A stretch of 21,046 nucleotides of DNA from a virus (IMGVR_UViG_3300038701_003462:1-21046), one strand, 5' to 3'; counted from the first letter of the stretch, positions 4,663 through 18,799 are shown. Translations and numbers: made by a program. Notes: generated from the sequence alone by a model not told the origin.

Positions 4663-5513
4663 CCGACGCGGCCCTCACCCTCGAAGACCCCACCGAGGGG
4701 CTCGTCACCCCCGCCGAGTTCGGCGCCCGCGTCGCCGCCGTCATCGGCCGCGAGCCCTACTCCCGCCCCGCCGTGCACAAGTGGCGCCAGCGGGGCGAGG
4801 TCGCGCCCCGCTACGTCGATCCCGACCGGGGCACCGCCTGGTACGACCCCGCCGACGCCGAACGCGTCGCCAAGAACCGCCCCGCCCACGGACGCGGCGG
4901 CGCCCGGCCCGGCTCGGGCCGGCCCCGCCGCACCGCCACCGGGCGGCCCGACGCCCCCGACCCGCTCGCCGACGAGGACTCGCTGGCCGCCCGCGCCGCC
5001 GTCGCCGAGCTGCGCTCCGAGCTCGCCGACCGAACCGAGCCGCCCGCCGGGGCGATCGAGCCGCGCGACGTCGCGCTGCTCACCCGCGACGAGCTGGCCG
5101 CCCTCGCCCGCTTCCCCGACGAGTCGGGCCCGATGACGGGCGCCGCCCTCGCCCGCTACGCCAAGCTCGAGGAGATCCGCAAGAAGGCGATCGCCAACGA
5201 ACGCGACGCGGGCAACCTCGTGGACAAACGCACCGCGGCCCGGGCGTGGGTCAAGACCGTCAGCGCCCTGCGGGCCGGGCTCGAGGGCCTGCCGATGGCC
5301 GTCGCCGCCCGCGTCGGGCCGATCGCCGCCCCCAACGACGCCGAGCTCGCCCAGGCCGGCGACCTGCTGCTCGCCACCGGCGCCGACCCCGACGCCGTGA
5401 ACCGGGCCCTCGCCCTCGTCGAACGACCCGCCGACTGCGAAGACGCCGTGCGGACCATCGTCGCCGCCGAGGTCCGCCGGCTGCTGGATGAGTTGGGGGG
5501 GAGTGAGGCGTGA
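4659..5513 (+). CDS. Terminase small subunit (DNA packaging)
   Basis: The GTG at 4659 overlaps the upstream TGA and gives 284 residues. Residues about 15-70 resemble a winged helix-turn-helix DNA-binding domain of the Nu1 type. A basic 'GGARPGSGRPRR' stretch follows at about 80-91, of the kind common in terminase small subunits. The C-terminal half has a long helix, 'KLEEIRKKAIANERDAGNLV', followed by a helical region ending near residue 220, the usual pattern for this family. It would recognise the packaging site and recruit the large subunit. The last codons (GSEA) and the stop lie within the first heptads of a repeat array, so the C-terminus may have been shaped by the repeat. Placement just before gpA-type terminase supports the call. 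Confidence 0.8.
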   Translation: MTDAALTLEDPTEGLVTPAEFGARVAAVIGREPYSRPAVHKWRQRGEVAPRYVDPDRGTAWYDPADAERVAKNRPAHGRGGARPGSGRPRRTATGRPDAPDPLADEDSLAARAAVAELRSELADRTEPPAGAIEPRDVALLTRDELAALARFPDESGPMTGAALARYAKLEEIRKKAIANERDAGNLVDKRTAARAWVKTVSALRAGLEGLPMAVAARVGPIAAPNDAELAQAGDLLLATGADPDAVNRALALVERPADCEDAVRTIVAAEVRRLLDELGGSEA

Positions 5514-5601
5514 GGCCTGAGGCCTGAGGCTTGAGGGATGAGCCGTGAGCAGTGAGCAGTGAGCAGTGAGGCCTGAGGCCTGAGTGCTCACGGATGACGC
5601 C
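5504..5601 (+). repeat. Heptad array 1 (small terminase to 59-aa gene)
   Basis: Fourteen consecutive 7-base words in one phase, the first overlapping the last two sense codons of the terminase small subunit. The second word supplies that gene's TGA stop at 5511-5513. Words include TGAGGCC (four times), TGAGGCT, TGAGCCG, TGAGCAG (three times) and TGAGTGC, then TCACGGA and a degenerate last word. Mostly TGAG orientation. The next gene follows after a 36-base stretch with a GAGAAAGG ribosome site. Confidence 0.95.
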
Positions 5602-5637
5602 CGCACGCGGCGGACCAAGAGAAAGGCGACAACGACG

Positions 5638-5817
5638 ATGGGTGAGCACGCGAAGAAACCCCCTTGCGAGCCCACGCCCCCGGGTGATCTGGTGGTGCGG
5701 CTGACGCTCGACGACGGCGAGTACCGGGAACGGCTGCGCGAAGACCTCGCGATGCTTGACGAGCTCATCGCGAAGATGGAACGCGTCAACGAACTCAAGG
5801 AGCAAGGAAAGGCCTGA
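5638..5817 (+). CDS. Small coiled-coil protein, 59 aa
   Basis: ATG 5638 is chosen because GAGAAAGG lies at 5619-5626 and because the earlier in-frame GTG at 5584 falls inside the repeat array. The product is small. After a Pro-rich start, residues about 20-55 form an amphipathic helix with a Leu/Ile/Met heptad pattern ('LREDLAMLDELIAKMERVNEL'), likely a coiled coil. It sits between the small and large terminase subunits and may be a packaging accessory, but no family is recognised. Its TGA stop is the first word of the following array. Confidence 0.65.
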   Translation: MGEHAKKPPCEPTPPGDLVVRLTLDDGEYRERLREDLAMLDELIAKMERVNELKEQGKA

Positions 5818-5919
5818 GGCCTGAGCAATGAGCAGTGAGGCGTGAGGCCTGAGTGCTGAGTGCTCACGGCTGAGTGCTCACCCCGCAAGCCTCACCCCTC
5901 AAGCCTCAAGCCTCCCCCC
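5815..5919 (+). repeat. Heptad array 2, exactly 15 heptads from stop to start
   Basis: The region from the upstream TGA to the base before the terminase ATG is 105 bases, exactly fifteen 7-base words without any phase change. The first seven are TGAG words. Then TCACGGC, TGAGTGC and TCACCCC alternate, one degenerate word follows, and the rest are TCA-type words ending in TCCCCCC. No Shine-Dalgarno sequence precedes the terminase start. Confidence 0.95.
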
Positions 5920-8061
5920 ATGACCTCCATCGCGGGCATCACCGACGCGGGGGCGTTTGTTCGTGAGACGGTCCGCGCGGCGCTGGCCGTGCGCGAAACG
6001 CCGCCGCCGGACGTCTGGCTCGACCGCCACCGCGGCGCGGGCGGGGCCTTCCGCTGGTCGATCCGGACCACCCCCTACCTCCGCGGCGTGCTGCGGGCCC
6101 TGGCCGACCCGCGCGTCCGCGAGGTCGTCGTGCTCAAGTCCGCCGGCGTCGGGTTCACCGAGGCGATCGTCGGGTACCACCTCTACGCGGCCGTCGAGCT
6201 GGGCCTCAGCTCGATCATGTTCGCCCCGACCAAGGACAAGGTCGGCAAGCTCGTCAAGAACAAGGTCACCCCCGCGATCCTCGCCACGCCCGCCGCCCTC
6301 GCGGCCCTGCGCGGCAACGTCAAGGACATCCAGGCCTCGGCCGTCACCTTCAAGGGCGCCGAGATCGGCTTCGCCTGGACGCAGTCGGCCGCGGGCAAGA
6401 AGTCCGAGCACGTGCCGCTCGTCTCGAGCGACGAGCACGACGAGGCCCCCGAGGGCACCCGCGACCAGCAGCAGTCGCGCACGCAGACCTACGAGCACCG
6501 GACCAACCTCTACGGCGGCACGCCCAACAACGCCGGCGACGAGACCGACGAGCTCTTCGGGCTCTCCGACCAACGCCGCTACTGCGTGCCCTGCCCGATC
6601 ACCGGGCGGTACTTCGAGCTCTGGGACTTCCCGCTCGTCCGCTGGGAGGGCGGGCTGCGGGCCGACCCCGACGGGGTCGAGTCGAAGGCCTGGGTGCAGA
6701 GCCCGTTCACCCCCGAGGGGTACACGCATGACGACCCCCGCGCCCGCGCCTACCGGATCCACAACCACGACAAGGCCTGGATGCTCGCCAACGGCGTCTG
6801 GGTCCGCGCCGGTGAAACGGTTGAGTCCGACGGGTCCATCCTCGAAACCCGACTTCAGCGAGCCCCGGCCGATAACGCCCGAGCAGACCGCGGCGCTTCG
6901 AGCCTCTCTGAGCTCGACCCCGCCCTGCTGCGCGTGCGGACGCCCGGCGGGCGGCGACGCCTGCCCGACCCCGAGCCCACCGACGCCGAGCGCCGCCTGA
7001 TCGAACGCTCGGGCGTGCGGATCGTCGGCGAGCCCGAGCGGCCCGACGCGCGGCTCGTCGGCTTCCGGCTCAACGCGCTCGCCTCGCCGTTCAACACCTT
7101 CGGGTACGTCGCGCGGGGCTTCGTCGAGGCGAAGGGCTCGCCCAGCCCGCACTGGTACCGCGAGCGGCTCGCCCAGCCCTGGCAGCCCGCCAGCGACAAG
7201 CTCGGGCTGGCCTACCTCCGCAAGCGCTGCGTGAGCGTCGCCGAGGGCGGCTACACCCGCGGCACCGCGCCCGACCCGGTCCGCTTCGTCGTCGCCGCCG
7301 TTGACACGCAGAAGGACCACGTCTGGGCCAGCTGGTGGGGCTTCTCCGCCGACGGGCTCGACTGCTGGTACCTGGACCACGAACGCATCGAGGCCCCCGA
7401 CGGCAACGACCTCGCCGAGATCGAGACCCGGGTGCCCGGCGCGACCTTCGCGCGGCGCGGCGGGGCCGAACGCCTGGGCGTGAGCGTGACGGCGGTGGAC
7501 TACGGGCACCGGTCCGAGGAGGTCGAGCGGTTCGTCGGTCGGCTGCTCGCGAATCGCCGCCTGGCCGTCTCGGTCAAGGGCGACATCAGCGCCGACCGCT
7601 ACCGCGAAGCGCGCGAGGGGATGACGAAAAACGGGGGGCTGCTGCTGCAGCTGCCCGTCAACCGGATCAAGGACCAGCTCGCGGGCATGATCGCCGGCCC
7701 GGCCGTCTGGAACCCCTCGGCCGAGGGGCAGCGCGGCAGCAACTTCTACCTCCCCGCCGACGCCCCCGACGAGCTGCTCGAGCACCTCTCGAGCGAGGAA
7801 CGCGCCCGGCCCAACGCCTCGACCCGCCCGTCCGCCCGCGCCTCGCAGCGCTTCGCCGTCTGGACGCCCCGCCGCGGGCGCTCGGACAACCACCTCTGGG
7901 ACGACCTGGTCTACGCCGTGGGCGTGCTCGACTGGGTGGGCGTGGACGCGCTGGTCGGCGCCGCGGCCCAGCCCGCCGCCCATCCCGCCGCCGACTCCGC
8001 CCCGCGGCCCGCCGCGCGGCCCGCCCCGCTCGTGCGCCGGCTGCGGCGCTTCGAGGACTGA
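5920..8061 (+). CDS. Terminase large subunit, lambda gpA type
   Basis: This 713-residue packaging motor starts at ATG 5920, right after the repeat array; earlier in-frame starts would translate the repeat. A gpA-type Walker A-like loop, 'KSAGVGFTE', lies at 73-81, with the lysine at its start as in lambda gpA rather than in a GKT/S box. A Walker B-like acidic pair is D171-E172 in 'LVSSDEHDE'. The gpA signature 'SDQRRYCVPCP' is at about 216-226 and 'VGFRLNALASPF' at 380-391. The nuclease domain has candidate acidic residues D462 ('VVAAVDTQKD'), D527 ('VTAVDYGH') and D661/D662 ('NHLWDDLVYA'). The enzyme pumps DNA into the prohead and cuts concatemers. Residues about 300-350 differ in codon use from the rest. 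The Ala/Pro-rich tail after residue 680 is probably flexible. Confidence 0.92.
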   Translation: MTSIAGITDAGAFVRETVRAALAVRETPPPDVWLDRHRGAGGAFRWSIRTTPYLRGVLRALADPRVREVVVLKSAGVGFTEAIVGYHLYAAVELGLSSIMFAPTKDKVGKLVKNKVTPAILATPAALAALRGNVKDIQASAVTFKGAEIGFAWTQSAAGKKSEHVPLVSSDEHDEAPEGTRDQQQSRTQTYEHRTNLYGGTPNNAGDETDELFGLSDQRRYCVPCPITGRYFELWDFPLVRWEGGLRADPDGVESKAWVQSPFTPEGYTHDDPRARAYRIHNHDKAWMLANGVWVRAGETVESDGSILETRLQRAPADNARADRGASSLSELDPALLRVRTPGGRRRLPDPEPTDAERRLIERSGVRIVGEPERPDARLVGFRLNALASPFNTFGYVARGFVEAKGSPSPHWYRERLAQPWQPASDKLGLAYLRKRCVSVAEGGYTRGTAPDPVRFVVAAVDTQKDHVWASWWGFSADGLDCWYLDHERIEAPDGNDLAEIETRVPGATFARRGGAERLGVSVTAVDYGHRSEEVERFVGRLLANRRLAVSVKGDISADRYREAREGMTKNGGLLLQLPVNRIKDQLAGMIAGPAVWNPSAEGQRGSNFYLPADAPDELLEHLSSEERARPNASTRPSARASQRFAVWTPRRGRSDNHLWDDLVYAVGVLDWVGVDALVGAAAQPAAHPAADSAPRPAARPAPLVRRLRRFED

Positions 8062-8150
8062 CCCCTCTCCCCGGCCCGCTCCCCGGCGGGGAGCGGGAGG
8101 CATCTCAAGACCCCTCACCCCGGCCCTCTCCCCGGCGGGGAGAGGGAGGC
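8062..8150 (+). repeat. Two copies of a hairpin repeat filling the terminase-connector junction
   Basis: Two units offset by 49 bases each contain a perfect 10-bp stem with a GGC loop, at 8075-8097 and 8124-8146. The fourth base pair is G-C in the first copy and T-A in the second, a compensatory difference that preserves the stem. No U-tract follows, so these are not classical intrinsic terminators. They resemble the widespread CCCTCTCCCC-type REP-like palindromes of GC-rich bacteria, by memory rather than by search. Confidence 0.9.
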
Positions 8151-8156
8151 AAGCCG

Positions 8157-8396
8157 ATGGCCGTCTGGACCTACAGCGCGTGGCGGGAAGAGGCGACCGA
8201 CGAGGCGCGGCTGACGATGCTCCGCCGGCACATGACCGAGGTCGATGACGCGATCGCGGCGACGGTGGCCAAGGACGGCGCCAGCCGCGACGCCAACGTG
8301 CTTAACGCCAAGATGGACCGCCTGGAGGAACAAGAGCGACGCTACATGGCCCGGACCGCCGACACCGTGCACTACGTGCGCCGAAGCCGGGCCTGA
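8157..8396 (+). CDS. Small head-tail connector candidate (gpW-like by position and size)
   Basis: ATG 8157 follows the hairpin repeat; no earlier start in this frame avoids the terminase gene. The product has 79 residues, with helices at about 13-36 and 44-66 and a short basic C-terminus ('YVRRSRA'). In lambda-type phages the gene between terminase large subunit and portal encodes gpW, a small head-completion protein of similar size. Sequence identity to gpW is not evident, so the assignment rests on synteny and size. The portal gene starts 3 bases after its stop. Confidence 0.6.
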   Translation: MAVWTYSAWREEATDEARLTMLRRHMTEVDDAIAATVAKDGASRDANVLNAKMDRLEEQERRYMARTADTVHYVRRSRA

Positions 8397-8399
8397 GCG

Positions 8400-9947
8400 A
8401 TGGCCTACGGCGGGTACGTGCTCGACGAGTCGGGCGGGCGGCACTACTTCCACCCCCGCGCGTCGCTCGGCTCGTTCGACAACACGAGCCGCTCGCGCAT
8501 CCGCACCCGCCCCGCGCCGCCGCTCGCCTCGGCCGCCGGGCACCGCGACGAGCGGACGCTCGAGGCGGCGATCCGCGACGGCCGCGACGCGCAGCGCAAC
8601 AGCGACGTCGTCGGGGCGATCATCAACGGGGCCATCTCGACGGTCGTCGGCGACGAGGTCACGCTCAAGGTCACGACCGACGACGAGGCGTGGAACCGCG
8701 AGGTCGAGGAGCGGTGGGCCGCGTGGTCGTGCCGGTGCGACCTGACGGCCCAGCTCACCTTCACCGAGCTGCTCGCCGCGGTCGTCTCGGACCACTTCGC
8801 CGCCGGCGGGCTGCTCGTCAACAAGTACCAGGCGACGGCGAACCACCAGGGCCGGCTGCAGGCGATCGAGGTGGACCGCCTGCGCAACCCCCGCGGCACC
8901 CGCGACGACAAGACCCACCACGCGGGCGTGCAGACCGACGAGCTCGGCGGCGTGCTCGGCTACCACGTCGCCGAGTGGGGCCGCTCGAAGACGCACCTCG
9001 AGACCGCCACCACCTTCGTGCCCGCGGGCCACGCCTGGCTCGTCAACGACTGCTACATGCCCCAGGCGGGGCTCTACCGCGCCGAGCCCCGGCTCACGCG
9101 CGTGCTCGAGCGCCTCGAAGAGCTGCTCATCGCCCGGCGCTCCACGCTCGCGGCCTACGAGCTCGCGACGCTCATCGGGCTCTTCTTCGCCCGCGAGGAC
9201 CCCGACGGGTCGATCGGGCAGAAGTTCGCCCGGGCGATGGTCAACGCGGGCGGGGCGGCGGACGTGAGCCAGGCCCAGGACCGGGGCCAGTACCAGGCGG
9301 CGGCGATCCTCGAGGGCCGCCCGAACGAGCGCGTCACCCAGATCAAGCCCGAGTTCCCGACGACGCAGTTCGACCTCTACCTCTGGACCGAGCTGCACAT
9401 CATCTGCGCCTCGGTCGGGCTGCCCCTCGAGATCGCGATGTTCCGGTTCATCCGGAACTTCAGCGCGTCCAAGGCGGCCGTCTCGATCGCGCACCGGACC
9501 GTCAAGCGGCAGCGGGCGCGGCTGCGCGACCGGCTGATGAGCCCCGTCTACGAGTGGTGGCTGCACCAGGAGATCGCCCACGGCCGCATCGCCGACCCCG
9601 ACCCGCACGCCCGCGACCGCTCGCGGGCCTACATGCGCCACCGCTGGCGCTTCGCCCCGATGCCCTCGATGGACCTCGACGCCGAGGTCGAGGCGCACCT
9701 CAAGATGCTCGCCGGCGGGCTGATCACCCACGGCGCCGCCCTCGACGCCGTGGGGCAGGGCCCGCGCGACCGGTACCTCACCGAACGCACCGCCGAGCTC
9801 GCCGAGGAACGCGAGCTCGGCCTCGAGATCGGCAAGAAGCCGACCCAGCCGACCGAGTCGCGGACCGTCGAAGACCCCGAGCACGACCCCGAGCAGGACG
9901 GCGAGACCGCCGACGAGCTCAACGGCCGCCGCTTCGCCAACGCCTGA
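8400..9947 (+). CDS. Phage portal protein, lambda gpB family
   Basis: The product has 515 residues, the usual size for this family, with ATG 8400 three bases after the upstream stop. Around residues 60-93 a helix followed by 'VVGAIINGAISTVVGDEV' matches the portal N-terminal clip region. 'IEVDRLRNPRG' near residue 153 matches the family's 'I.pdRl' strand. 'LHIICASVGLPLEIAMFRF..NFSASKAAV' at about 330-360 is the strongest signature. 'RWRFAPMPSMDLDAEVEAHLKMLAGGLITHG' near 414-444 is the typical C-terminal element. It forms the dodecameric DNA entry ring at one capsid vertex. The C-terminal 50 residues are acidic and low in complexity. Confidence 0.9.
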   Translation: MAYGGYVLDESGGRHYFHPRASLGSFDNTSRSRIRTRPAPPLASAAGHRDERTLEAAIRDGRDAQRNSDVVGAIINGAISTVVGDEVTLKVTTDDEAWNREVEERWAAWSCRCDLTAQLTFTELLAAVVSDHFAAGGLLVNKYQATANHQGRLQAIEVDRLRNPRGTRDDKTHHAGVQTDELGGVLGYHVAEWGRSKTHLETATTFVPAGHAWLVNDCYMPQAGLYRAEPRLTRVLERLEELLIARRSTLAAYELATLIGLFFAREDPDGSIGQKFARAMVNAGGAADVSQAQDRGQYQAAAILEGRPNERVTQIKPEFPTTQFDLYLWTELHIICASVGLPLEIAMFRFIRNFSASKAAVSIAHRTVKRQRARLRDRLMSPVYEWWLHQEIAHGRIADPDPHARDRSRAYMRHRWRFAPMPSMDLDAEVEAHLKMLAGGLITHGAALDAVGQGPRDRYLTERTAELAEERELGLEIGKKPTQPTESRTVEDPEHDPEQDGETADELNGRRFANA

Positions 9948-9952
9948 CCCCC

Positions 9953-9988
9953 ACCCCCACGACGACCGCCACCCCCACGACGACCGCC
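9953..9988 (+). repeat. Two exact 18-bp direct repeats before the protease gene
   Basis: Two identical 18-base copies, 9953-9970 and 9971-9988, lie between the portal stop and the protease ATG at 9991. They are C-rich and have no Shine-Dalgarno sequence. The period is 18, not 7, so this is separate from the heptad arrays. Confidence 0.9.
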
Positions 9989-9990
9989 AC

Positions 9991-11466
9991 ATGCCCGACC
10001 CCACCATCACCCCCGACGGCCTGAGCCGGCAGACGTTCCGCGCCCCGATGTTCGCGGCGCCCGAGCTGGCCGACGAGCTGCGGCTGGCCATGAACGCCGG
10101 CAAGCCCTCGCACCGCGGGCCCCGGCCGGTCTGCTCGATCCTCGAGCCCTACGCCCGCGCCGCCGAGGCCGCCTGCGAGCCCTTCCTCCGCGCGGGCCGC
10201 GCCGCGATCGTCCGCCTCGACGGGCCGATCTTCTTCGCCGCCAGCGTGTGGAGCTGGTACCTGGGCGGGTGCTCCTCGACCGCCCTGGTCCGCGCGTTCG
10301 ACGCGGCCGCGAACGACCCGACCATCGAGGAGGTCGTCGTCGATATCCACTCGCCCGGGGGCGACGTCTTCGGGCGCGACGAGCTCATCGCCGCCGTGGA
10401 CCGGTGCGCCGAGTCCAAGCCGACCACCGCGCTCGTGCACGGGATGTGCGGCTCGATGGCGACGTGGGTCGCCTCCCGCTGCGGCGGCGTCGCGATCACG
10501 CCCGAGAGCTGGATGGGCGGCATCGGCTCGATCGTCACGCTCGAGGACTCGTCCGAGGCCGCCGCCAAGCACGGGTACAAGGTCGTCGCCGTCACCGACG
10601 CCCAGCTCAAGGCGGGCGGGTACGGGCTGCCCATCACCGACGAGATCGTTGACAACTACCGCGAGCTCATCTTCGCCGAGGGCGCCGCCTTCCGCGCCTC
10701 GGTCGCCGAGGGCCGCGGCGTCAACCCCGACACCATCGCCGGCTGGAACGGCCGGATGTTCACCGCCCCGCGCGCCGTCGAGATCGGCCTGGCCGACCGC
10801 GTCGTCGGCGCGCACGACTGGTACGCCGAGATCCTCGGCGCCCACACGGAGACCGACATGACCGCCGCCCCCACCCGCGTTTCGCCCGGCAACACGACCC
10901 CCACGACCCCCGCCCCCAAGGCCGAGACCGCGCTCGAAGACAAGCCCCTCAGCGCGATGACCGACGACGAGAAGAAGGAAGCCCTCGCCCAGCTCACCGC
11001 CGAGGTCGGCACGGCCGACGACGACGAGGAGACCCCCGCGGCCGAGACGACGACGCCCGACAAGGACGAGGAGCCGACGGCGCGGATGACCATCGCCCAG
11101 GCCCGGTCGGTCGTCTCGGATTTCGAGATCCCCGAGGCCGCGGCGAAGTCGATCGTCCTCGACGCCGTCGAGCACAACTGGGCCGGCGCCAAGCTGCTCA
11201 GCTCGTGCATGGCCGCCCAGCGCGAGCACGACGGCACCGAGACCCGCCGGCGTGAGCTCGACCGCGCCGCCGGGGGCGGGCAGACGCCCGTCTCGGCCAG
11301 CCCCGCGGCCGGGGGCGGGGAGTTCCCCGACTTCAAGTCCGCCGTCGCGCACTACCAGCAGACCGAGAAGCTCACCTACCCGCAGGCCTGCCTCAAGGCC
11401 CGCGACGCGCACCCCGACCTCCGCCGCGCCGCCTTCGCCCCGGCGGACCTGCAGGAGGCGGGTTAA
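9991..11466 (+). CDS. Prohead protease (S49 family) fused to scaffold-like C-terminus
   Basis: The product has 491 residues from ATG 9991. Residues about 70-290 form an S49 (SppA/ClpP-like fold) protease: 'VVVDIHSPGGDVFG' at 115-128 is the SPGG strand-turn, S155 in 'GMCGSMATWVAS' is the likely nucleophile, and K207 in 'AQLKAGGYG' the likely general base. The C-terminal 200 residues are acidic and low in complexity, then helical, as in the scaffold part of lambda gpC/Nu3. It should process the prohead during maturation, and the scaffold part should guide capsid assembly. Its position between portal and decoration protein is canonical. An internal start at 10858 may give scaffold alone. It ends with TAA, unlike most neighbours, and the next heptad array starts there. 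Confidence 0.88.
   Translation: MPDPTITPDGLSRQTFRAPMFAAPELADELRLAMNAGKPSHRGPRPVCSILEPYARAAEAACEPFLRAGRAAIVRLDGPIFFAASVWSWYLGGCSSTALVRAFDAAANDPTIEEVVVDIHSPGGDVFGRDELIAAVDRCAESKPTTALVHGMCGSMATWVASRCGGVAITPESWMGGIGSIVTLEDSSEAAAKHGYKVVAVTDAQLKAGGYGLPITDEIVDNYRELIFAEGAAFRASVAEGRGVNPDTIAGWNGRMFTAPRAVEIGLADRVVGAHDWYAEILGAHTETDMTAAPTRVSPGNTTPTTPAPKAETALEDKPLSAMTDDEKKEALAQLTAEVGTADDDEETPAAETTTPDKDEEPTARMTIAQARSVVSDFEIPEAAAKSIVLDAVEHNWAGAKLLSSCMAAQREHDGTETRRRELDRAAGGGQTPVSASPAAGGGEFPDFKSAVAHYQQTEKLTYPQACLKARDAHPDLRRAAFAPADLQEAG
10858..11466 (+). CDS. Possible internally initiated scaffold protein (Nu3-like)
   Basis: An in-frame ATG at 10858, residue 290 of the protease gene, has GGAG at 10848-10851 with 6 bases of spacing. 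It sits exactly where the protease domain ends. The product would be 202 residues: an acidic linker, a helical segment near its middle, and a C-terminal helical part with 'FKSAVAHYQQTEKLTYPQACL'. In lambda, Nu3 scaffold is made in this way from within gene C. Separate production here is inferred from the ribosome site and the domain boundary only. Confidence 0.5.
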   Translation: MTAAPTRVSPGNTTPTTPAPKAETALEDKPLSAMTDDEKKEALAQLTAEVGTADDDEETPAAETTTPDKDEEPTARMTIAQARSVVSDFEIPEAAAKSIVLDAVEHNWAGAKLLSSCMAAQREHDGTETRRRELDRAAGGGQTPVSASPAAGGGEFPDFKSAVAHYQQTEKLTYPQACLKARDAHPDLRRAAFAPADLQEAG

Positions 11467-11743
11467 GAGTCCTGAGGCCTGAGGCTTGAGGCTTGAGGGG
11501 GCGGCACTCAGCCGTGAGCACTCAGCACTCAGGACTCAAGCCTCCCCCTCAGGACTCACCCCTCAGGACTCAGGACTCGGCAGTGAGCAGTGAGCAGTGA
11601 GCAGTGAGGCTTGAGGCCTGAGTGCTCACGGCTGAGTGCTCACGGCTGATTGCTCACGGCTGATTGCTCACCCCTCAGGACTCAGGTCTCAGGACTCAGG
11701 TCTCCCCCCCAGGACTCAGGTCTCAGGACTCAGGTCTCCCCCC
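11466..11743 (+). repeat. Heptad array 3, the longest (about 40 heptads)
   Basis: About 278 bases of 7-base words begin at the last base of the protease stop. Order: TGAG words, a mixed TCA block, a second TGAG block with TGAGCAG three times, four alternations of TGA(G/T)TGC with TCAC words (11619-11674), then alternating TCAGGAC and TCAGGTC. Bases 11675-11709 are followed by a near-perfect tandem copy (11710-11743, one T lost). Phase slips of one base occur near 11548 and 11710. It fills most of the 370-base gap before the decoration gene. Confidence 0.95.
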
Positions 11744-12299: not shown

Positions 12300-12452
12300 T
12301 GAGTTCTGAGTCCTGAGGCCTGAGTGCTCACGCCTGACTGCTCACCGCTCACTGCTCACTGCTCACTGCTGACTGCCCACTGCTCACCGCTCACCACTCA
12401 CCGCTCACGCCCTCCCCTCAAGTCTCACCCCTCAGGCCTCAGGCCTTTCCCC
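12300..12452 (+). repeat. Heptad array 4 (decoration to capsid gene)
   Basis: About 22 words: four TGAG words, TCACGCC, then chiefly TCACTGC and TCACCGC with interspersed TGACTGC, ending in TCAAGTC, TCACCCC and TCAGGCC twice. There is one 6-base slip at 12412-12417. An isolated TGAGTCC at 12208-12214 next to the decoration stop suggests that the hairpin cluster inserted into, or replaced part of, a once continuous array. Confidence 0.93.
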
Positions 12453-12462
12453 CCCCAACCCC

Positions 12463-12501
12463 GACCCCGCGCCGTGACCGCCGCGCCGAGGCGCGGGGGT
12501 C
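12463..12501 (+). promoter_or_regulatory. Hairpin in leader of major capsid gene
   Basis: GACCCCGCGCC at 12463-12473 pairs with GGCGCGGGGGTC at 12490-12501, with one bulged G, around a 16-base loop. It is followed by CTTCGTG. It occupies the same position as the hairpin before the decoration gene: after the repeat array and before the AGGACCAC leader. Confidence 0.55.
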
Positions 12502-12514
12502 TTCGTGCGCCCAC

Positions 12515-12525
12515 GAGGACCACCG
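12515..12525 (+). promoter_or_regulatory. Ribosome-binding leader GAGGACCACCG of capsid gene
   Basis: GAGGA lies 6 bases before ATG 12526, with the shared AGGACCACC block. It fixes the start over the earlier in-frame start at 12505, which lies inside the leader. Confidence 0.75.
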
Positions 12526-13488
12526 ATGCCCACCGCCAGCGACGCCGTCATGCCACGCGACGACCTCACGGGGTCGTACCAGGAGTTCCGCGAGGAGGAC
12601 CAGCGGCATATCGCCCGCCTGGTCCTGCCCGAGTACGCCGTGCCCGAGCGATCGGGCAGGCTCGGCCGCATCCCCGCCGAGCAGGCGACCAAGCGGGAGA
12701 ACACGATCCGCCGGCCCAACACCCCGCGCGCCCGGGCCAACTGGACGCCCGAGCAGATCACGTACGACCTCAAGGAGTACAGCTTCGAGGTCCCGTGCGA
12801 CCGCACGGACAAGATGACGTGGCGGCAGTGGTTCGACGCCGAGGACGAGGCGGCGAAGATCGCCGGCTCGACCGTGGACCTGGACCTCGAGTACACCACG
12901 GCCTCGCTGCTGTTCAACCGGACCACCTGGCCCGACGACGGCGTGCTCGGGCTGGACGTCACCCACGAGTGGGACGACGCGGCCAACGCGACGCCGCTGG
13001 CGAACATCGCCTTCGCCAAGCAGAAGCTGCGGTCGCGCGGGATCAAGAGCGGGCTCGCCCTGATCATCACGCAGGACACGATCGACGACCTGGGCTTCTG
13101 CGCCGAGATCCTCAACCGGATCAAGTACGTCGCGGGCGAGGTGAAGAGCATCGAGATCAGCCCCGAGTTCCTCCGCCAGCTCGTGAAGGTGGACCAGGTC
13201 ATCGTCGCCGACAGCCAGCAGAACACGGGCGGCTCGGGCGCGGCGCTGAGCATGGAAAACGTCTGGAGCCCCGAGTATTGCATGCTCGCGGCGGTGGGCA
13301 CCGGCCCGATCCAGGCGGGCGGCCCGCAGCTCGGCCGCACGTTCGTGCAGAGCGACATCGGGGGCATGATGGTCAAGACGTACGCCGAGGAGCAGAGCAA
13401 CTCCGAGATCGTCTACGCCGAGGACCACGCCGACCCGAACGTCTTCCACGTCGAGGCGGGGTTCCTCTTGGGCAACCTCGTCACGTGA
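12526..13488 (+). CDS. Major capsid protein (HK97-fold, gpE-like)
   Basis: The product has 320 residues from ATG 12526 with a GAGGA ribosome site. Size and position after protease/scaffold and decoration protein are those of the lambda-type coat protein. The central 'DKMTWRQWFDAEDEAAKIAGSTVDLDLE' resembles a spine-helix region. The C-terminal 'QSDIGGMMVKTYAEEQSNSEIVYAEDHADPNVFHVEAGFLLGNLV' resembles the end of phage E-type capsid proteins, with its 'v.syr.....d.v.....d..v.....g.ll.n' pattern. It would build the icosahedral shell. Family membership is judged by pattern; no alignment was made. The next gene overlaps its stop by 4 bases. Confidence 0.82.
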   Translation: MPTASDAVMPRDDLTGSYQEFREEDQRHIARLVLPEYAVPERSGRLGRIPAEQATKRENTIRRPNTPRARANWTPEQITYDLKEYSFEVPCDRTDKMTWRQWFDAEDEAAKIAGSTVDLDLEYTTASLLFNRTTWPDDGVLGLDVTHEWDDAANATPLANIAFAKQKLRSRGIKSGLALIITQDTIDDLGFCAEILNRIKYVAGEVKSIEISPEFLRQLVKVDQVIVADSQQNTGGSGAALSMENVWSPEYCMLAAVGTGPIQAGGPQLGRTFVQSDIGGMMVKTYAEEQSNSEIVYAEDHADPNVFHVEAGFLLGNLVT

Positions 13489-13682: not shown

Positions 13683-13687
13683 CCACG

Positions 13688-13697
13688 AAGGACCACC
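13688..13697 (+). promoter_or_regulatory. Ribosome-binding leader AAGGACCACC
   Basis: AAGGA lies 5 bases before ATG 13698, with the same AGGACCACC block as the capsid and tail genes. It starts right after the upstream TAA. Confidence 0.7.
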
Positions 13698-14228
13698 ATG
13701 GCCGAACCGACCAAGAAGGACCTGCAAGACCAGGTCGCCGAGCTGCAGGCGCAGCTGGGCGCCGCCAACGCGCGGGCCGACGAGCTCGAGGCGGGCGGCG
13801 ACGACGTCGCCCGCGAACGCTTCGCCAGGCTCAGCGCCGCGGCCGACGCGCTGCGCGACGAGAACGCCGCGCTGAACGCCCAGATCGAGACGCTGGCGCG
13901 GCAGAACGAGGCGGCCGAGGGCGCCCTGGCCGAGCTCGAGATCGGGGCCGAGGGCGGCGCGCTGCTGCCCGTCCGCCTCGACCACGAGTTCCGCCACGGG
14001 CACGAGATGCACCCGGCGGGGACCGTGATCGGGCACGTGCTCGACGGCATGATGTTCTCGCCCTCGACCTTCGGGCACCTGATCTTCAGCGGCAAGGCCT
14101 CGGTCGTGCGGCCCGAGCCGCCGGCCGGGCCGGCCGAGCCGGCCGACCCGCTCGCCGCGCTCAGCGACGACGAGAAGCTCGAGGCCTACGAGCGGCTCCG
14201 CGCGGAGCTCGAAGGGGGTGACGAATGA
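13698..14228 (+). CDS. Coiled-coil phage protein, 176 aa
   Basis: The start at ATG 13698 is backed by AAGGACC. Residues about 5-82 form a long heptad-patterned coiled coil ('DLQDQVAELQAQLGAANARA', then 'LRDENAALNAQIETLARQNE'). A compact beta-containing region follows at about 90-140, then a Pro/Ala linker and an acidic helical tail. It could be a head-tail connector or a minor head protein; no family is recognised. It overlaps the lipoprotein gene by 4 bases. Confidence 0.7.
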   Translation: MAEPTKKDLQDQVAELQAQLGAANARADELEAGGDDVARERFARLSAAADALRDENAALNAQIETLARQNEAAEGALAELEIGAEGGALLPVRLDHEFRHGHEMHPAGTVIGHVLDGMMFSPSTFGHLIFSGKASVVRPEPPAGPAEPADPLAALSDDEKLEAYERLRAELEGGDE

Positions 14229-14857
14229 ACCGGCTCACCCTCCCGGCGCTCGCGCTGCTGGTGACGCTCGTGGGGCCGCTCGTGGGGCTGCTCGCCCTGG
14301 CGGGGTGCGCCACCGAGCGGGCCCAGACGCCCGGGCAGGTGGTGCTCGACGCGGGCGCGATGGCCGCGCGGACGACCGCGGGTCAGAACGTGCAGGTCTA
14401 CCCCGACGGGTCGATGCAGTCGCAGTCGGTGCAGGCCGACAGCGGGCAGATCGACCGGGGGCTCATCGACTACCAATCGACGGGGCTCAGCGCGATGATG
14501 AGCCTGGGCCGCGAGGGCGTGAGCCTGCGCAACCCGGGCAACTTCGGCGCCGACCGCGCCGTGATCGAGTTCGGCGAGCCCGTCGGCACGCCGCCCGACG
14601 GCGAGCTGGTCGTGCCGATCCGGACGCTCACGCTCGAGGGCGTGAACAACGAGGTCACGACGGTCGTCGAGGCCTCGACGGCGCAGGTGGGCGTCTGGGC
14701 CTCGGCCCTGGCCACGCTCGCGCCGGCCCAGCAGGAGGCGTTCGTGCGGGCGCTGGAGCGCGACGAGCGGGTCGCCGCCTCGTTCACCGACGCGCTGCGC
14801 GAGGCCCTCGGGCTCGCCGGCGGCCTGCTGAGCCCGGGGGTGGACCTTGCGGATTGA
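14225..14857 (+). CDS. Lipoprotein, 210 aa
   Basis: ATG 14225 overlaps the previous stop (ATGA). The N-terminus has an Arg followed by a hydrophobic stretch and a lipobox 'LAGC', with Cys28 as the lipidation site, so the mature protein should be anchored in a membrane. The mature part is beta-rich in its middle and helical at the end (about 155-195). A lipoprotein is unexpected between capsid and tail genes. It might be an outer-membrane spanin-like subunit, a superinfection-exclusion protein or a cargo gene. Its base composition does not differ from its neighbours. Confidence 0.75.
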   Translation: MNRLTLPALALLVTLVGPLVGLLALAGCATERAQTPGQVVLDAGAMAARTTAGQNVQVYPDGSMQSQSVQADSGQIDRGLIDYQSTGLSAMMSLGREGVSLRNPGNFGADRAVIEFGEPVGTPPDGELVVPIRTLTLEGVNNEVTTVVEASTAQVGVWASALATLAPAQQEAFVRALERDERVAASFTDALREALGLAGGLLSPGVDLAD

Positions 14858-15224
14858 CGAGGTCGAGTGGGCGACGGGGTACGGCGTGGAGACCAGCGAG
14901 CACGAACGCACCGCCTCGGCCGGCCGCGCCGCCAACCTCGGCGGGGCGCTGGCCGCGATCACCGGCATCGGCGGGCTCTCGGGCGTGGCGCTCGACGCGC
15001 TGCCCGTGCCCGTCGCCGTCGCGATGGTCGTCGGCGCGTTCGCCTTCGCGCTGGGGGCGCTGGCGCTGAAGACCTGGGCGGACGTCGAGTACGCCCGCGG
15101 CCGCGCGTCGATCAAGGCCGTCACCGCCGCGGCGACCGCCGCCGACGCGATGCGCGAGCCCGAGGCGAGCCCCGGGGACGTGCTCGCCGGCATCGAGCGC
15201 CTGCTCGCCGAGAAGGGCGCCTGA
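14847..15224 (+). CDS. Two-TM membrane protein (holin-like topology), 125 aa
   Basis: The proposed TTG start at 14847 overlaps the lipoprotein by 11 bases and has GGGGGTGG 6-7 bases upstream. The alternative GTG at 14886 would drop the first 13 residues. Hydrophobic segments lie at about 31-50 and 52-75, followed by a soluble Ala-rich helical tail. Topology and size fit a holin, but that call rests on shape alone. It stands between a lipoprotein and a one-TM coiled-coil protein, an arrangement reminiscent of lysis modules. Confidence 0.65.
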   Translation: MRIDEVEWATGYGVETSEHERTASAGRAANLGGALAAITGIGGLSGVALDALPVPVAVAMVVGAFAFALGALALKTWADVEYARGRASIKAVTAAATAADAMREPEASPGDVLAGIERLLAEKGA

Positions 15225-15225
15225 C

Positions 15226-15675
15226 GTGGCCGACGGCTCGATCGCGACGTGCGAATCGCGCCGGGACGACGACGGCCGGCGGCAGTTTGTCGTGCTGCCC
15301 TCGCCGCTGGTCAAGATCGGCGTCGTCGTGCTCGCGGGCCTGCTGCTGGCGGCCACCATCGGCGGCTTCGGCGCGTGGGTCAGCTTCAAGGGCTTCGAGC
15401 GCGAGTGGGCGACCTACCGCTCGGACATCCGCGCGAACAACGAGTTCAGGCTCCAGGGCGACCGCGTCACCCCCGCCGACGTCGATGCGATCAAGGCCTG
15501 GGCCGAGGCCCTCGTCGAGCGGCAGGACGAGTCGCTCAACGCCCTCGCCGAGACTTTCCGCGGGCTCAACGAGACGATCGTCGATCTGGCGATCCAGTTC
15601 GGGGCGCTCCGCGCCGACGTCGAGGCCGTTCGGCGCGAGCAGGACCGCGCCCGCCAGCAGGGAACCCGACCATGA
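15226..15675 (+). CDS. One-TM coiled-coil protein (inner-spanin-like topology)
   Basis: GTG 15226 starts one base after the upstream stop, with GAGAAGGG about 7 bases before it. The product has 149 residues: a short polar N-terminus, one membrane helix at about 29-51, then a long, mostly helical region (about 75-145) with coiled-coil character. An N-terminal anchor plus extended coiled coil is the layout of inner-membrane spanins, and many phage structural proteins lack it. No spanin motif was recognised. The stop overlaps the next start by 4 bases. Confidence 0.7.
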   Translation: MADGSIATCESRRDDDGRRQFVVLPSPLVKIGVVVLAGLLLAATIGGFGAWVSFKGFEREWATYRSDIRANNEFRLQGDRVTPADVDAIKAWAEALVERQDESLNALAETFRGLNETIVDLAIQFGALRADVEAVRREQDRARQQGTRP

Positions 15676-16238
15676 GCATCCTCTCGACCGACGTCCTCCG
15701 CCCGCTCAGCACCGCCGGGCTCCGCAAGAGCGCGTCGGACCTCGCCGTCGGGTACAACACCGTCAACGCGGCCCTCGACGCGCTGAGCTTCCCGCTCGGG
15801 CGGCCCGGGGCGCGGTTCCGCTCGTTCGACGGGCGCTTCGCCGTGGGCGGGGCCTCCGAGGGCAACACCGTGGACTTCTACGCCTGGCTGCGCTTCAACC
15901 CCGCCGCCGGGCCGGGCGCGACGGCCGAGAAGGGCAAGTGCGAGCTGATCGCGCTGGGCTCGGGCACCATCACCGCCGGCGCGACCGCGTGCGACGGCGT
16001 CGTGCTGCCCGACACCTTCCTCTGGGCCAAGGCCGTGAGCTGGACGCTCGACACCAACGGCGTGAGCGACCTGATCACCGACGACTTCCTCGGGGCCCTG
16101 CCCTCGAGCCGCGGGTTCGGGGCCTCGTCGCTGCACCGCCGCTTCTGCGTGCCCGAGTGCTGCGCCGCCGACGCGATCGTCTTCGAGTTCGTCGATGCGA
16201 CGTACACGGGGACCGTGGTCGGGCGGGCGTATACGTGA
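15672..16238 (+). CDS. Hypothetical phage protein, 188 aa (structural candidate)
   Basis: ATG 15672 overlaps the previous TGA (ATGA). The sequence is soluble and beta-rich, with Gly/Ala turns and four Cys residues in its second half, including 'CVPECC'. It has no signal peptide. It could be a minor head or joining protein, given the position just before head-tail joining genes. No family is recognised. Its TGA stop is the first word of heptad array 5. Confidence 0.65.
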   Translation: MSILSTDVLRPLSTAGLRKSASDLAVGYNTVNAALDALSFPLGRPGARFRSFDGRFAVGGASEGNTVDFYAWLRFNPAAGPGATAEKGKCELIALGSGTITAGATACDGVVLPDTFLWAKAVSWTLDTNGVSDLITDDFLGALPSSRGFGASSLHRRFCVPECCAADAIVFEFVDATYTGTVVGRAYT

Positions 16239-16319
16239 GGGGGAGGCTTGAGTCCTGAGGCTTGAGGCTTGAGAGACTCAGGACTCAGGCCTCAGGACTC
16301 AAGACTCAGGCCTCAAGCC
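16236..16319 (+). repeat. Heptad array 5
   Basis: Twelve words start with the TGA stop of the upstream gene. The first part has TGAG words (TGAGGGG, TGAGTCC, TGAGGCT twice), with one 6-base and one 8-base word. The second part is entirely TCA words (TCAGGAC, TCAGGCC, TCAAGAC, TCAAGCC). It is thus split cleanly by orientation at 16278. Confidence 0.93.
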
Positions 16320-16332
16320 GCCTGCAGGCGGC
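16317..16332 (+). other. Perfect 16-bp palindrome before joining gene
   Basis: GCCGCCTGCAGGCGGC is a perfect palindrome that joins directly to the end of heptad array 5 and precedes the next ATG by 9 bases. It could form a stem in RNA or be a protein site. No Shine-Dalgarno sequence is seen in this leader. Confidence 0.7.
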
Positions 16333-16341
16333 GACACAGCC

Positions 16342-16725
16342 ATGACCTTCGCCGACGAACTCGACGCGCTGGGCGCGGACTGCGGGGCGCACCTGGGGGA
16401 CCAGGCGGCGACCGTGACGGTGATGGCCTTCGAGCTCACGGGCGTGCTCAACGCGGCCAAGCGCACCCGCAACGAGCGCGCGACGGCAACCTTCACCACC
16501 ACGCTCATCGACCGGGCCGAGCGCGACGGGCGGCTCGACGCGGGCGACGCGTCGCGGCGCGTGCGGCGGCGGTCGGTCAGCTTCCCCGTGGCCGACAACG
16601 ACACCGCGCACGCCTTCACGCTCGAATCGACCGTGACCGTCGGCGCCGACGTCTGGAAGGTCGCGTCGATCACGACGAGCCTGGGCGGGCGGATGTACGA
16701 CGTGGACCTCGAGACGGAGGCGTAG
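16342..16725 (+). CDS. Head-tail joining protein candidate, 127 aa
   Basis: ATG 16342 follows the palindrome. The product starts with a short helix, then is beta-rich ('ATVTVMAFELTGVLN', 'ATATFTTTLI', 'TLESTVTVGADVWKVASI'). Length and position before the tail terminator and tail tube genes match head-tail completion proteins such as lambda gpFII, but no residue-level signature is recognised. The next gene starts 4 bases after its stop. Confidence 0.6.
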   Translation: MTFADELDALGADCGAHLGDQAATVTVMAFELTGVLNAAKRTRNERATATFTTTLIDRAERDGRLDAGDASRRVRRRSVSFPVADNDTAHAFTLESTVTVGADVWKVASITTSLGGRMYDVDLETEA

Positions 16726-16729
16726 GGCC

Positions 16730-17182
16730 GTGCCCGGGATCCACGTCGATGTGGTCGGCGTCAAGGGCATGATCTTCGATCTGCTCATCGACGGGCTCGG
16801 GTCGGGCCCGGCGTTCCTCTTCCCGAACGAGCCCGTGCCCGCCGGCGAGGGCCGGTGGGTGCGCGCCCACGAGCCGCGCTTCGTCGCGCCCGCCGCCCGC
16901 CGCCACGGCGACGGCGAGCACCGCGAGCTGCGGTTCACCGGCGTGGTCTCGGTGAGCGTGCGCGGCGGCGCCGCGGCCCAGCACACCGCCGACGCGAACC
17001 TCGTCAGCCGGATCCTCGACGGGGCCGTCGCGACCGACGACGACCACGTCGTGACGCTCGATGCCGCCGTGCCCAACGACGAGACCGCCCCCGGCGAGGC
17101 GCCGTCGACACGCGTCAGCAGCGTCGCCTACTCGGGCACCGTCACCCGCACCGCCGGCAGCTCGATCACGAGTCCGGCCTGA
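16730..17182 (+). CDS. Tail terminator candidate (gpU-like by context), 150 aa
   Basis: GTG 16730 starts four bases after a TAG, implying coupling. A helix near residues 85-100 ('TADANLVSRILDGAVA') and several strands, one near residue 66-78 ('LRFTGVVSVSVRG'), fit the alpha/beta layout of tail terminators. The gene lies immediately upstream of the tail tube gene, as gpU does relative to gpV. Evidence is context and length. The stop TGA begins a heptad (TGAGTCG), after which a hairpin interrupts the array. Confidence 0.55.
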   Translation: MPGIHVDVVGVKGMIFDLLIDGLGSGPAFLFPNEPVPAGEGRWVRAHEPRFVAPAARRHGDGEHRELRFTGVVSVSVRGGAAAQHTADANLVSRILDGAVATDDDHVVTLDAAVPNDETAPGEAPSTRVSSVAYSGTVTRTAGSSITSPA

Positions 17183-17185
17183 GTC

Positions 17186-17201
17186 GCCGCCCGCCGGCGG
17201 C
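17186..17201 (+). other. 6-bp GC hairpin after tail terminator gene
   Basis: GCCGCC pairs with GGCGGC around a CGCC loop, three bases past the stop codon. It sits between a first heptad at the stop and the main array, as does the hairpin cluster after the decoration gene. No U-tract is present. Confidence 0.6.
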
Positions 17202-17202
17202 C

Positions 17203-17308
17203 TGAGGCCGGAGGGATGAGGCTTGAGACCTGAGTCCTGAGTGCCTCAAGCCTCGCCCCTCGCCCCTCAAGCCTCACCCCTCAGGCCTCACCCCTCAAGC
17301 CTCACCCA
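17203..17308 (+). repeat. Heptad array 6 (before tail tube gene)
   Basis: Fifteen words: TGAGGCC, a degenerate GGAGGGA, TGAGGCT, TGAGACC, TGAGTCC and an 8-base TGAGTGCC. Then only T(C)A/TCG words follow (TCAAGCC three times, TCACCCC twice, TCGCCCC twice, TCAGGCC, TCACCCA). The orientation switches once, at 17246. Confidence 0.93.
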
Positions 17309-17312
17309 TCGC

Positions 17313-17324
17313 GAGGACCACCGC
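17313..17324 (+). promoter_or_regulatory. Ribosome-binding leader GAGGACCACCGC of tail tube gene
   Basis: GAGGA lies 7 bases before ATG 17325 and carries the shared AGGACCACC block. It fixes the start against the earlier in-frame start at 17241 that would translate the repeat array. Confidence 0.75.
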
Positions 17325-17837
17325 ATGGCCGACGTCAATATCAACACCACGAACAAGCGCACCGACGCGGACGTCGATGGGGTCGTGATCAAGTTCACGG
17401 CGTCGGACGTGGGCGCGGACACGTACTTCATTCTCAACACCGTCGACGGCTCCATCCGCGAACGGGTCGGCAAGCGCGCGGTCGTGCCCCCGGGGAACGA
17501 CAGCGACCGGGGCGTGTATCCGACCAAGCCCCGCCAGGGCGCGCAGCAGACGAGCGCCGTCGAGCTCGACATCCAGTACCACAGCAGCGCCACGGCGACC
17601 GAGCTCGAGTCCGTGCTCACCCGCGACGACACCAGCGACGGGTACGTGCCCGTCTTCGAGACGTTCATCCTCGAGTTCCCGACGTACCGCGGCGCCGACA
17701 CCGGCGTACGGAAGACATACGCCAACATGTACGTCGTCGGGGACGTGGAGTTCGAGCATCAGAACGGCGGCGGTGTGCTGAAGATGCGCCTCGAATGCAC
17801 CAAGAAGCCCACCGTCGCGGCGTACGACAACAGCTGA
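17325..17837 (+). CDS. Major tail tube protein
   Basis: ATG 17325 with a GAGGACC leader gives 170 residues, typical for siphophage tube proteins. The sequence is beta-rich and polar, with 'AVELDIQYHSSATATELESVL' and a strand pair, 'TYANMYVVGDVEFEHQNGGGVLKMRLECTKKPTV', near the C-terminus. That matches the 'nf.v.gs.n.e...gg.v..tv.l...g...' pattern of tube proteins. It lies between the terminator candidate and the tail chaperone with its frameshift, the usual order. It polymerises into the hollow tail tube around the tape measure. Confidence 0.75.
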   Translation: MADVNINTTNKRTDADVDGVVIKFTASDVGADTYFILNTVDGSIRERVGKRAVVPPGNDSDRGVYPTKPRQGAQQTSAVELDIQYHSSATATELESVLTRDDTSDGYVPVFETFILEFPTYRGADTGVRKTYANMYVVGDVEFEHQNGGGVLKMRLECTKKPTVAAYDNS

Positions 17838-17853
17838 ATCGAGGGGTGGGGCT

Positions 17854-17954
17854 TGAGCAGTGAGCAGTCAGCAGTCAGGCCTCATCCCTCACTGCTGATC
17901 ACTCACTGCTGACTGCTCAGTGCTGACTGCTCGCCCCTCAAGCCTCCTCCCCCC
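17854..17954 (+). repeat. Heptad array 7 (tail tube to tail chaperone)
   Basis: About 14 words: TGAGCAG twice, then TCAGCAG, TCAGGCC and TCATCCC, and alternation of TCACTGC with TGACTGC or TGATCAC, then TCGCCCC and TCAAGCC, ending in a C-run. It starts 16 bases after the stop, so the stop codon here is not part of a clean word. The AAGGACCACC leader follows directly. Confidence 0.9.
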
Positions 17955-17968
17955 AAGGACCACCGACC
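17955..17968 (+). promoter_or_regulatory. Ribosome-binding leader AAGGACCACCGACC of tail chaperone
   Basis: AAGGA lies 9 bases before ATG 17969. It is the fifth copy of the AGGACCAC block in the window. Confidence 0.7.
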
Positions 17969-18508
17969 ATGATCGAGAAAGACAGCCTCGTCGCGACCTC
18001 CGAGATCCCCGTCGTGCTGCCCGACGGCAAGCCGGGGTCCATGCGCGCGCTCACGCCGGCCGACCGCTCGGGGCTGCAGCGCGCCCACCCCGGGCCGGTG
18101 CCGCCGCTGGCGCCCGACCCCGAGCGGCTGGGCGGGGCGCGGGTGCCCAACGAGCTCGACGCCGGGTACCGCGCCGCGCGGTCGGCCTGGAACGGCGAGC
18201 AGCGGCTGCTGCAGGTGATGGCCTGCCTCGGGTACCGCACCGCCTCGGGCAAGGAGTGGTCGCGCGACCACCTGCACCAGGGCACCGACGACCAGCGCCG
18301 CCGCGCCGACGACGGCCGCACCGCCTGGGCCCGCGACACCATCGCCGACCTGGCCGAGGACATCAGCGACGAGTGGGTCTACACGGCCTCCGAGGCGCTG
18401 TTCGGGTCCGACGGCTTCTCCGCGGCGCTGGCGGCGTCGGGAAAGGGCGGCTCTGGCACCCCCGCCGGGCCGAAACCGCCGAAAGACGCATCGAGCGGCG
18501 CGGGCTGA
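17969..18508 (+). CDS. Tail assembly chaperone, short form (gpG-like)
   Basis: The unshifted product has 179 residues from ATG 17969. It lies between tail tube and tape measure, the fixed place of lambda gpG. The central part is helical and Arg/Asp-rich ('LDAGYRAARSAWNGEQRLLQVMACLGY', 'TIADLAEDISDEWVYTASEAL'). The last 25 residues are Gly/Pro/Ser-rich and follow a G GGA AAG slippery site. Such chaperones coat the tape measure during tail assembly and are absent from the virion. No sequence signature was seen; the call rests on position, size and the frameshift. Confidence 0.75.
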   Translation: MIEKDSLVATSEIPVVLPDGKPGSMRALTPADRSGLQRAHPGPVPPLAPDPERLGGARVPNELDAGYRAARSAWNGEQRLLQVMACLGYRTASGKEWSRDHLHQGTDDQRRRADDGRTAWARDTIADLAEDISDEWVYTASEALFGSDGFSAALAASGKGGSGTPAGPKPPKDASSGAG

Positions 18509-18696
18509 GCCACGCGCTCACCCCGCCCGACGCGTACGACGTGACGCTGCGGTACGTGCAGCTGCGCGTCGCCGAGGCCTTCCCCGCCGCCGGCCCGCCC
18601 GAGGCGATGGACCCCGCGGCGCTCGCCGAGCTGTACGCCTACTGCCGGATGCGCGACGCCGAGCGGGCGCGCGAGCTCGCGGCGGCGATGGTGTGA
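17969..18696 (+). CDS. Tail assembly chaperone, -1 frameshift product (gpGT-like)
   Basis: If ribosomes slip back one base at 18439-18445, translation resumes at 18445 and runs to the TGA at 18694-18696. This gives 159 shared residues plus 83 new ones, 242 in all. The extension is a credible coding sequence: 'AYDVTLRYVQLRVAEAFPAAGPPEAMDPAALAELYAYCRMRDAE...' has helical character and high third-position GC. It has no start codon of its own near a ribosome site. In lambda the GT extension recruits tail tube protein while the G part binds the tape measure. Confidence 0.8.
18439..18445 (+). other. Programmed -1 frameshift slippery site GGGAAAG
   Basis: The heptamer is in the required phase, G GGA AAG, relative to the ATG 17969 frame, and is identical to the lambda G-T slippery sequence. 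The zero-frame stop is 61 bases downstream and the -1 frame stays open for 83 codons. A 5-bp stem (GGCGG with CCGCC) can form immediately downstream but its spacing is unusual. Confidence 0.85.
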
Positions 18697-18799
18697 GGGG
18701 TGAGGCCTGAGGCCTGAGGCTTGAGTGCCTCACGGCTCACGGCTCACTGCTCACGGCTCCCCCCCTCAAGCCTCACCCCTCAAGCCTCAGGACTCGCCC
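18694..18799 (+). repeat. Heptad array 8, from GT stop to next ATG
   Basis: Fifteen words and short variants run from the TGA at 18694 to the base before ATG 18800. TGAGGGG, TGAGGCC twice, TGAGGCT and an 8-base TGAGTGCC come first. TCACGGC three times, TCACTGC, TCAAGCC twice, TCACCCC, TCAGGAC and a shortened last word follow. Orientation changes once, at 18730. No ribosome site precedes the next start. Confidence 0.94.

Follow-up and report, generated by a model that had tools for sequence, protein, structure and literature searches.

The DNA analysed here is an IMG/VR virus record, an isolated contig of 21,046 bases with a GC content of 73.5%; this whole stretch is referred to below as the window. 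Pfam matches place a lambda-like late operon on its + strand. The terminase large subunit, with GpA ATPase and nuclease domains (5920-8061, +; PF05876, E 2e-28; PF20454, E 1e-30), is followed by a portal protein of the lambda family (8400-9947, +; PF05136, E 9e-42) and by an S49-type head protease with a C-terminal extension (9991-11466, +; PF01343, E 7e-11). The terminase large subunit is preceded by a terminase small-subunit-like gene, which was recognized by a weak PHROG match (phrog_57 terminase small subunit, E 1e-4), and the gene at 12526 occupies the major-capsid position. Gene calls were made with a simple self-trained gene finder written for this analysis, which reproduced the map of the window. 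On this gene map, intergenic DNA makes up 7.9% of the window.

In the tail region, the ORF at 17969-18508 carries a GGGAAAG slippery site (18439-18445) near its end, and the -1 frame remains open as far as 18696. A programmed frameshift yielding a tail chaperone is probable at 17969-18696, and its product is presumably the counterpart of lambda G/GT. In pattern searches of a viral contig collection, neither the terminase nor the portal gave a close relative. The terminase is 26-33% identical to its best Planctomycetota matches and 22-29% identical to phage relatives, and order-level pattern searches found no genome that shares the heptad vocabulary described below.

Eight heptanucleotide arrays, all described on the + strand, lie at the junctions of this operon and are built from units with a TGAG or a CTCA core. 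Array 1 (5504-5601) is one-armed and comprises 12 TGAG units where the terminase small-subunit-like gene ends, and the stop codon TGA of that gene (5511-5513) is itself an in-register unit. Array 2 (5815-5919) consists of a TGAG arm, TG spacers and a CTCA arm that reaches the ATG of the terminase large subunit; the upstream ORF ends in a stop codon (5815-5817) that serves as the first unit of the array. Array 3 (11466-11743), behind the head protease gene, contains two or more successive palindromes. Array 4 (12300-12452), with a short TGAG arm and a long CTCA arm, precedes the gene in the major-capsid position. Array 5 (16236-16319) is a near-perfect palindrome whose first unit is the stop codon of the upstream gene (16236). 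Array 6 (17203-17308) begins 20 bases past the upstream stop and runs from a TGAG arm to a CTCA arm. Array 7 (17854-17954) is partly degenerate and is flanked by two tail-region genes. Finally, array 8 (18694-18799) starts at the stop codon that ends the frameshift tail-chaperone ORF and runs up to the following ATG.

The heptad register of these arrays is clear. The window contains 90 TGAG and 124 CTCA cores, and pairs of the same core occur 39 times each at a spacing of 7 and 33 times (TGAG) and 35 times (CTCA) at a spacing of 14; other spacings occur 0-2 times. In 200 first-order Markov shuffles of the window no array was formed, compared with the eight observed. All eight positions given in the initial annotation stand. 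A further array start that it had placed at 21039 is only a stop codon, TGA, with five more bases at the end of the record. In its proposed vocabulary, TGAGTGC largely represents the switch point between the arms, TGAG-TG-CTCA or TGAG-TGC-CTCA. An assembly artefact is ruled out, as similar arrays occur in many independent assemblies and the adjoining reading frames are intact.

The view that the arrays form one family at gene junctions is correct. On the gene map, ten gaps reach 80 bases, and eight of them contain an array. It was also correctly noted that they are absent where genes overlap. No window array lies inside a gene, and the overlap between arrays and genes is confined to stop-codon or terminal bases (10, 3, 3 and 3 bases). 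Most arrays start at, or just past, the upstream stop codon, and in four of them this codon doubles as a TGAG unit (stops at 5511, 5815, 16236 and 18694). TGAG units come first and CTCA units last, with the switch to CTCA preceding the next start; array 1, with TGAG only, is the exception. Three gaps without heptads contain repeats of other kinds. The long gap at 8062-8157 is filled by two GC-rich hairpin copies of the CTCCCCGGCGGGGAG type, the other long gap has a tandem repeat of the GACCGACCCC type at 259-338, and the gap at 9948-9990 has a short tandem repeat of the 18-base unit CCACCCCCACGACGACCG.

Neighbouring units are far from uniform: between adjacent units of the window arrays, 45% of the N positions differ while the TGAG core persists, a conservation that is inflated because the arrays were located by that fixed core. 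Segments of 20-30 bases are common to different window arrays. Compared with dinucleotide shuffles, seven of the eight arrays are predicted to fold stably as RNA (z from -3.2 to -6.5). Among these are array 5 (-58.4 kcal/mol, z -6.5), array 6 (z -6.3), array 2 (-52.2 kcal/mol, z -4.9), the segment 11466-11610 of array 3 (z -3.9), array 7 (z -3.8) and array 8 (z -3.2); the exception is array 4, with z -1.7. The sense frames are closed within 28 nt in seven of the eight arrays. The G3+ quadruplex pattern is absent from both strands of all eight arrays, and a G-quadruplex reading of them was rejected. Canonical intrinsic terminators were rejected as well: seven terminator-like sites (a stem followed by a T-run) were found, none of them inside an array. 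Rfam gave no matches above the gathering score.

Similar arrays, spelled with other heptads, are found in phages and bacteria unrelated to this phage. A strict palindrome pattern was defined as three TGAG heptads, a gap and three CTCA heptads. In the viral contig collection it occurs in 34 stretches, compared with 2 for the CTCA-first order, and the vocabularies of the viral palindromes include TGAGTGG, TGAGCNN, TGAGTGC/TGAGGAC and TGAGTAA. The same architecture is built on other cores in the viral scan, namely CGAG (17 stretches) and TGAC (5). Among 392 Planctomycetota genomes, 6 have the strict palindrome and 10 the TGAGKCY pattern. Neighbouring same-sense cores in the collected arrays are separated by 1624 steps of 7 and 92 of 14, with few of other lengths.

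The polarity seen in the window is near-absolute elsewhere. In 307 arrays with gene calls, a total that includes loci picked by the palindrome pattern, the order is TGAG-CTCA in 83 and CTCA-TGAG in none. Loci picked by a one-strand pattern only give the same result, 33 vs 0. Palindromes built on different heptads, which a search with no fixed core recovered, lead with the purine-rich arm in 34 of 41 cases, part of which come from loci chosen for a purine-first core. The only CTCA-first palindromes of the viral scan are at L410 and L409. L410 has two of them with identical CTCAGTG/CACTGAG heptads, which are possible exceptions to the polarity rule. One Planctomycetota genome (G112) has 8 matches to a backwards control pattern, with ACTC first, and none to the TGAG palindrome.

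The placement of arrays outside the window follows that within it. Palindromic arrays lie a median of 10 nt past stops and 30 nt ahead of starts, and at 58 of their 70 gene-end sides a stop lies inside the array or within 30 nt of it. One-armed arrays follow the polarity rule too, in that the purine strand runs outward from whichever gene is closer: the median distance is 18.5 nt to the gene 5' of the TGAG strand and 106 nt to the other gene, and the 5'-side gene is the nearer in 120 of 176 (p 1.6e-6). They show no transcription-strand bias (65 vs 66). Arrays are depleted between divergent genes (4/71 vs 195/1288, p 0.024). The initial annotation had set arrays inside genes against its junction rule; there are none in the window, and elsewhere a minority of 29 lie wholly in genes. 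In all 29 the coding strand is mainly CTCA, the heptad orientation without TGA stops. An in-frame TGAG/CTCA palindrome is present in the head maturation protease of another phage (L134:941-996), where the unit whose TGA would fall in frame reads CAAG.

The two arms of a palindrome are independent of each other. In 40 arrays, an array's own arms pair on average 0.08 kcal/mol/nt worse than arms swapped within the genome (p 0.036), and snap-back duplication of one arm is thus not supported. The length of the spacer and the register of the arms vary among arrays, and in some genomes one central spacer is common to several arrays (GCTCGGAA; AAGACCCTCTGG). The reused spacers, together with the 20-30 base segments common to window arrays, point to copying between arrays. 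Degenerate units are as frequent in the outer as in the inner halves of arms (33 vs 31 of 459 each), and growth at the inner tip was rejected on the lack of a gradient.

Two other groups of phages carry dense sets of arrays at the junctions of their structural operons. Contig 3300005578_000008 (loci L134, L272, L283 and L344) encodes a ClpP-type head protease, a major capsid protein E, a tape-measure match and a DUF2460 protein, and its arrays, with TGC, TCC and GAC heptads, lie 0-16 nt past most stops of the structural operon. The second group (L278, L336 and L333) uses the window vocabulary of GCC, GCT and TCC, and L278 encodes a GpA nuclease, a lambda-family portal and a capsid protein. Homologous stretches are 89% identical between L278 and L336, and 83-87% identical between L336 and L333. 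At the first homologous junction, TGAG/CTCA arrays are kept in L336, L333 and L057, the last being 99% identical to L278 and standing for it in this comparison, and the numbers of units differ. At the next junction, where its relatives have TGAGGCY, one arm of L333 is made of GCAGGCT/GTAGGCT and the other of GGAGGCY. Replacement of heptads has thus gone arm by arm, without loss of the period, the polarity or the location.

A second vocabulary, CGGAGGC/GGAGGCC, occurs in and near genes of this group (L278:5085-5184 and L336:4619-4709), and in frame it encodes RRPEAGG-like peptides. L278 also encodes a ParB N-terminal domain fused to a DNA methylase (1606-2952).

From the abundance of repeats in the window, the initial annotation had suggested long residence in a host rich in them, or domestication. 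This is not established: arrays are sparse in Planctomycetota, and the dense arrays of other phages differ in vocabulary, so that arrays need not be copied from one host.

We consider it about an even call that these are fast-turnover intergenic heptad arrays, tolerated where DNA is untranslated and folding into intercistronic hairpins when transcribed. A full array would be made of two independent arms, with the purine-rich strand running from the flanking genes to the middle. The arms would turn over fast through slippage, homogenisation of units and copying between arrays. Heptads would persist only in untranslated DNA because the TGAG strand has TGA in all three frames, and within genes only the CTCA strand would be readable. 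If the late operon is transcribed through the window arrays, stable hairpins are predicted to form directly past the stop codon, and they may punctuate or stabilise the transcript. Against this account, slippage on its own would be expected to give units that are all alike and inverted pairs in either order, and the near-regular presence of arrays at junctions in several phages would be compatible with a function. The near-absolute polarity, together with NNN variation around a retained TGAG, hints at a constraint or a directional process beyond slippage.

Such a constraint could act on the RNA. A hairpin behind the stop would shield the upstream cistron from 3'-5' decay or attenuate transcription, thereby setting the ratios of late proteins, and pyrimidine-rich CTCA arms before starts would leave the ribosome site unstructured. 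This is possible, and we regard it as unlikely rather than remote. The stable predicted folds are consistent with it, as are the location of arrays directly past stops, their rarity where genes diverge, their repeated presence at capsid and tail junctions in a second phage, and the retention of an array at homologous junctions despite changed heptads. Its expectation for polarity is the one observed, that is, purine after stops and pyrimidine before starts, and polarity would be explained if RNA of this composition were selected. On the other hand, the arms are not co-adapted, spacer length and arm register vary, and no terminator-like site is found inside an array. One-armed arrays are also as common as palindromes, and array 1 of the window is one of them.

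Alternatively, the directional process could act on DNA ends. A repeat-adding or slipping polymerase would add one-sense heptads to both 3' ends at breaks in the gap, and the ends would then be joined. The product would have convergent purine arms, independent content and a random junction, which would account for the near-absolute polarity regardless of gene direction, the independence of the arms and the variable spacers. We find this doubtful. No enzyme or template for it is identified, growth at the inner tip predicts older and worse units on the outside whereas outer and inner units are equally often degenerate, and the central spacers shared between arrays in some genomes suggest the copying of whole arrays. 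End addition of this kind would explain the polarity, and a wider form of the idea, to which we give a similarly small chance, is that in many bacteria and phages a directional process lays one-sense heptads outward from both gene edges and so builds the DNA of the gaps. If this were true, the convergent polarity would be the trace that the process leaves, recorded most densely in phage structural operons with arrays at nearly every junction.

The remaining two explanations turn on the TGAG core. A host or phage protein might read GAG or TGAG at 7-base intervals in DNA or RNA and leave the remaining positions free, as the variation of NNN around a persistent core would suggest. The core itself was used to find the arrays, though, and at one junction L333 has swapped TGAG for GCAG/GTAG; moreover, other cores share the arrangement and no candidate protein is known, which makes such binding sites improbable. 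Least credible, to the point of being nearly negligible, is selection of TGAG heptads for closing all reading frames behind a gene, which fits the rapid closure of sense frames in the window and the upstream stops that are often array units, but which is useless for CTCA arms before starts and is refuted as a general cause by the commonness of CGAG palindromes, which have no stops, the GGGAATC repeats of Xanthomonas likewise obeying the same placement rule (PMC4692102) and, by their sequence, carrying no stops; a local benefit could remain.

Intergenic heptad arrays of this sort have several counterparts among known repeats. STRR are 7-base tandem repeats in the intergenic DNA of filamentous cyanobacteria. 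They resemble the TGAGNNN arrays in being intergenic 7-base tandems and differ in their unit, CCCCART, of which the window holds no tandem pairs; the relation to STRR, with a difference in sequence, was rightly drawn in the initial annotation. According to work cited in PMC4679880, the long simple repeats of many bacterial genomes are most often heptameric. TAACTGA repeats of Beggiatoaceae, Cyanobacteria and Bacteroidetes (MacGregor 2015, PMC4679880) are also intergenic heptamers with forward-sense stop codons. They differ in having a near-invariant unit and in being mostly direct and just upstream of starts, with one indirect repeat reported (PMC4679880), and no tandem TAACTGA pair was found in the window. 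REP/BIME elements, as the abstracts of PMC3733652 and PMC8266576 describe them, are extragenic palindromes near stop codons as the window arrays are, but have short units tagged GTAG or CGTC and are tied to TnpA-REP transposases. The window arrays have period-7 arms of variable length, and it is by this architecture that the two were compared. Borg tandem repeats are likewise pervasive and fast-evolving in an extrachromosomal element, and are set apart by their description, which in the abstract has no defining 7-base period or convergent arms (PMC9879509).

The closest match is with the heptameric (GGGANTN)n and GGGGA(C/T)T repeats that Rehm et al. (2015) described in Xanthomonas and Nostoc (PMC4692102), and for the (GGGANTN)n repeats the authors found no function (PMC4692102). 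Both kinds have an intergenic 7-base unit with fixed and variable positions, and both form convergent pairs on opposite strands, near the end of the upstream ORF on the coding strand and near the start of the downstream ORF on the non-coding strand. Arrays of both kinds overlap stop codons in some cases, are scarce between divergent genes and, in relatives, recur at corresponding junctions with altered length and sequence (PMC4692102). The heptad build of the Rehm repeats, their convergent pairing and their position relative to ORF ends and starts are all present here, and the G-tracts of a quadruplex are missing. Unlike those repeats, the window arrays have TGAGNNN instead of G-runs, without a G-quadruplex pattern in any of them, and sit in a phage structural operon, in nearly every gap of at least 80 bases. 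By analogy, we would file them as intergenic heptameric repeats of the Xanthomonas/Nostoc kind, with TGAGNNN as the unit. What we would file as new is the non-quadruplex TGAGNNN form in a phage operon, as judged on the open-licence literature, with earlier descriptions in subscription journals possible. Since arrays without G-quadruplex potential share the placement and polarity of the Rehm type, a quadruplex explanation cannot hold for the class, and the main earlier explanation for intergenic heptameric repeats is thereby removed. The phage arrays offer a small, dense system for separating slippage, hairpin function and directional addition, and those of the window, striking as they are, represent one form among others of a bacterial repeat whose kind is known and unexplained.
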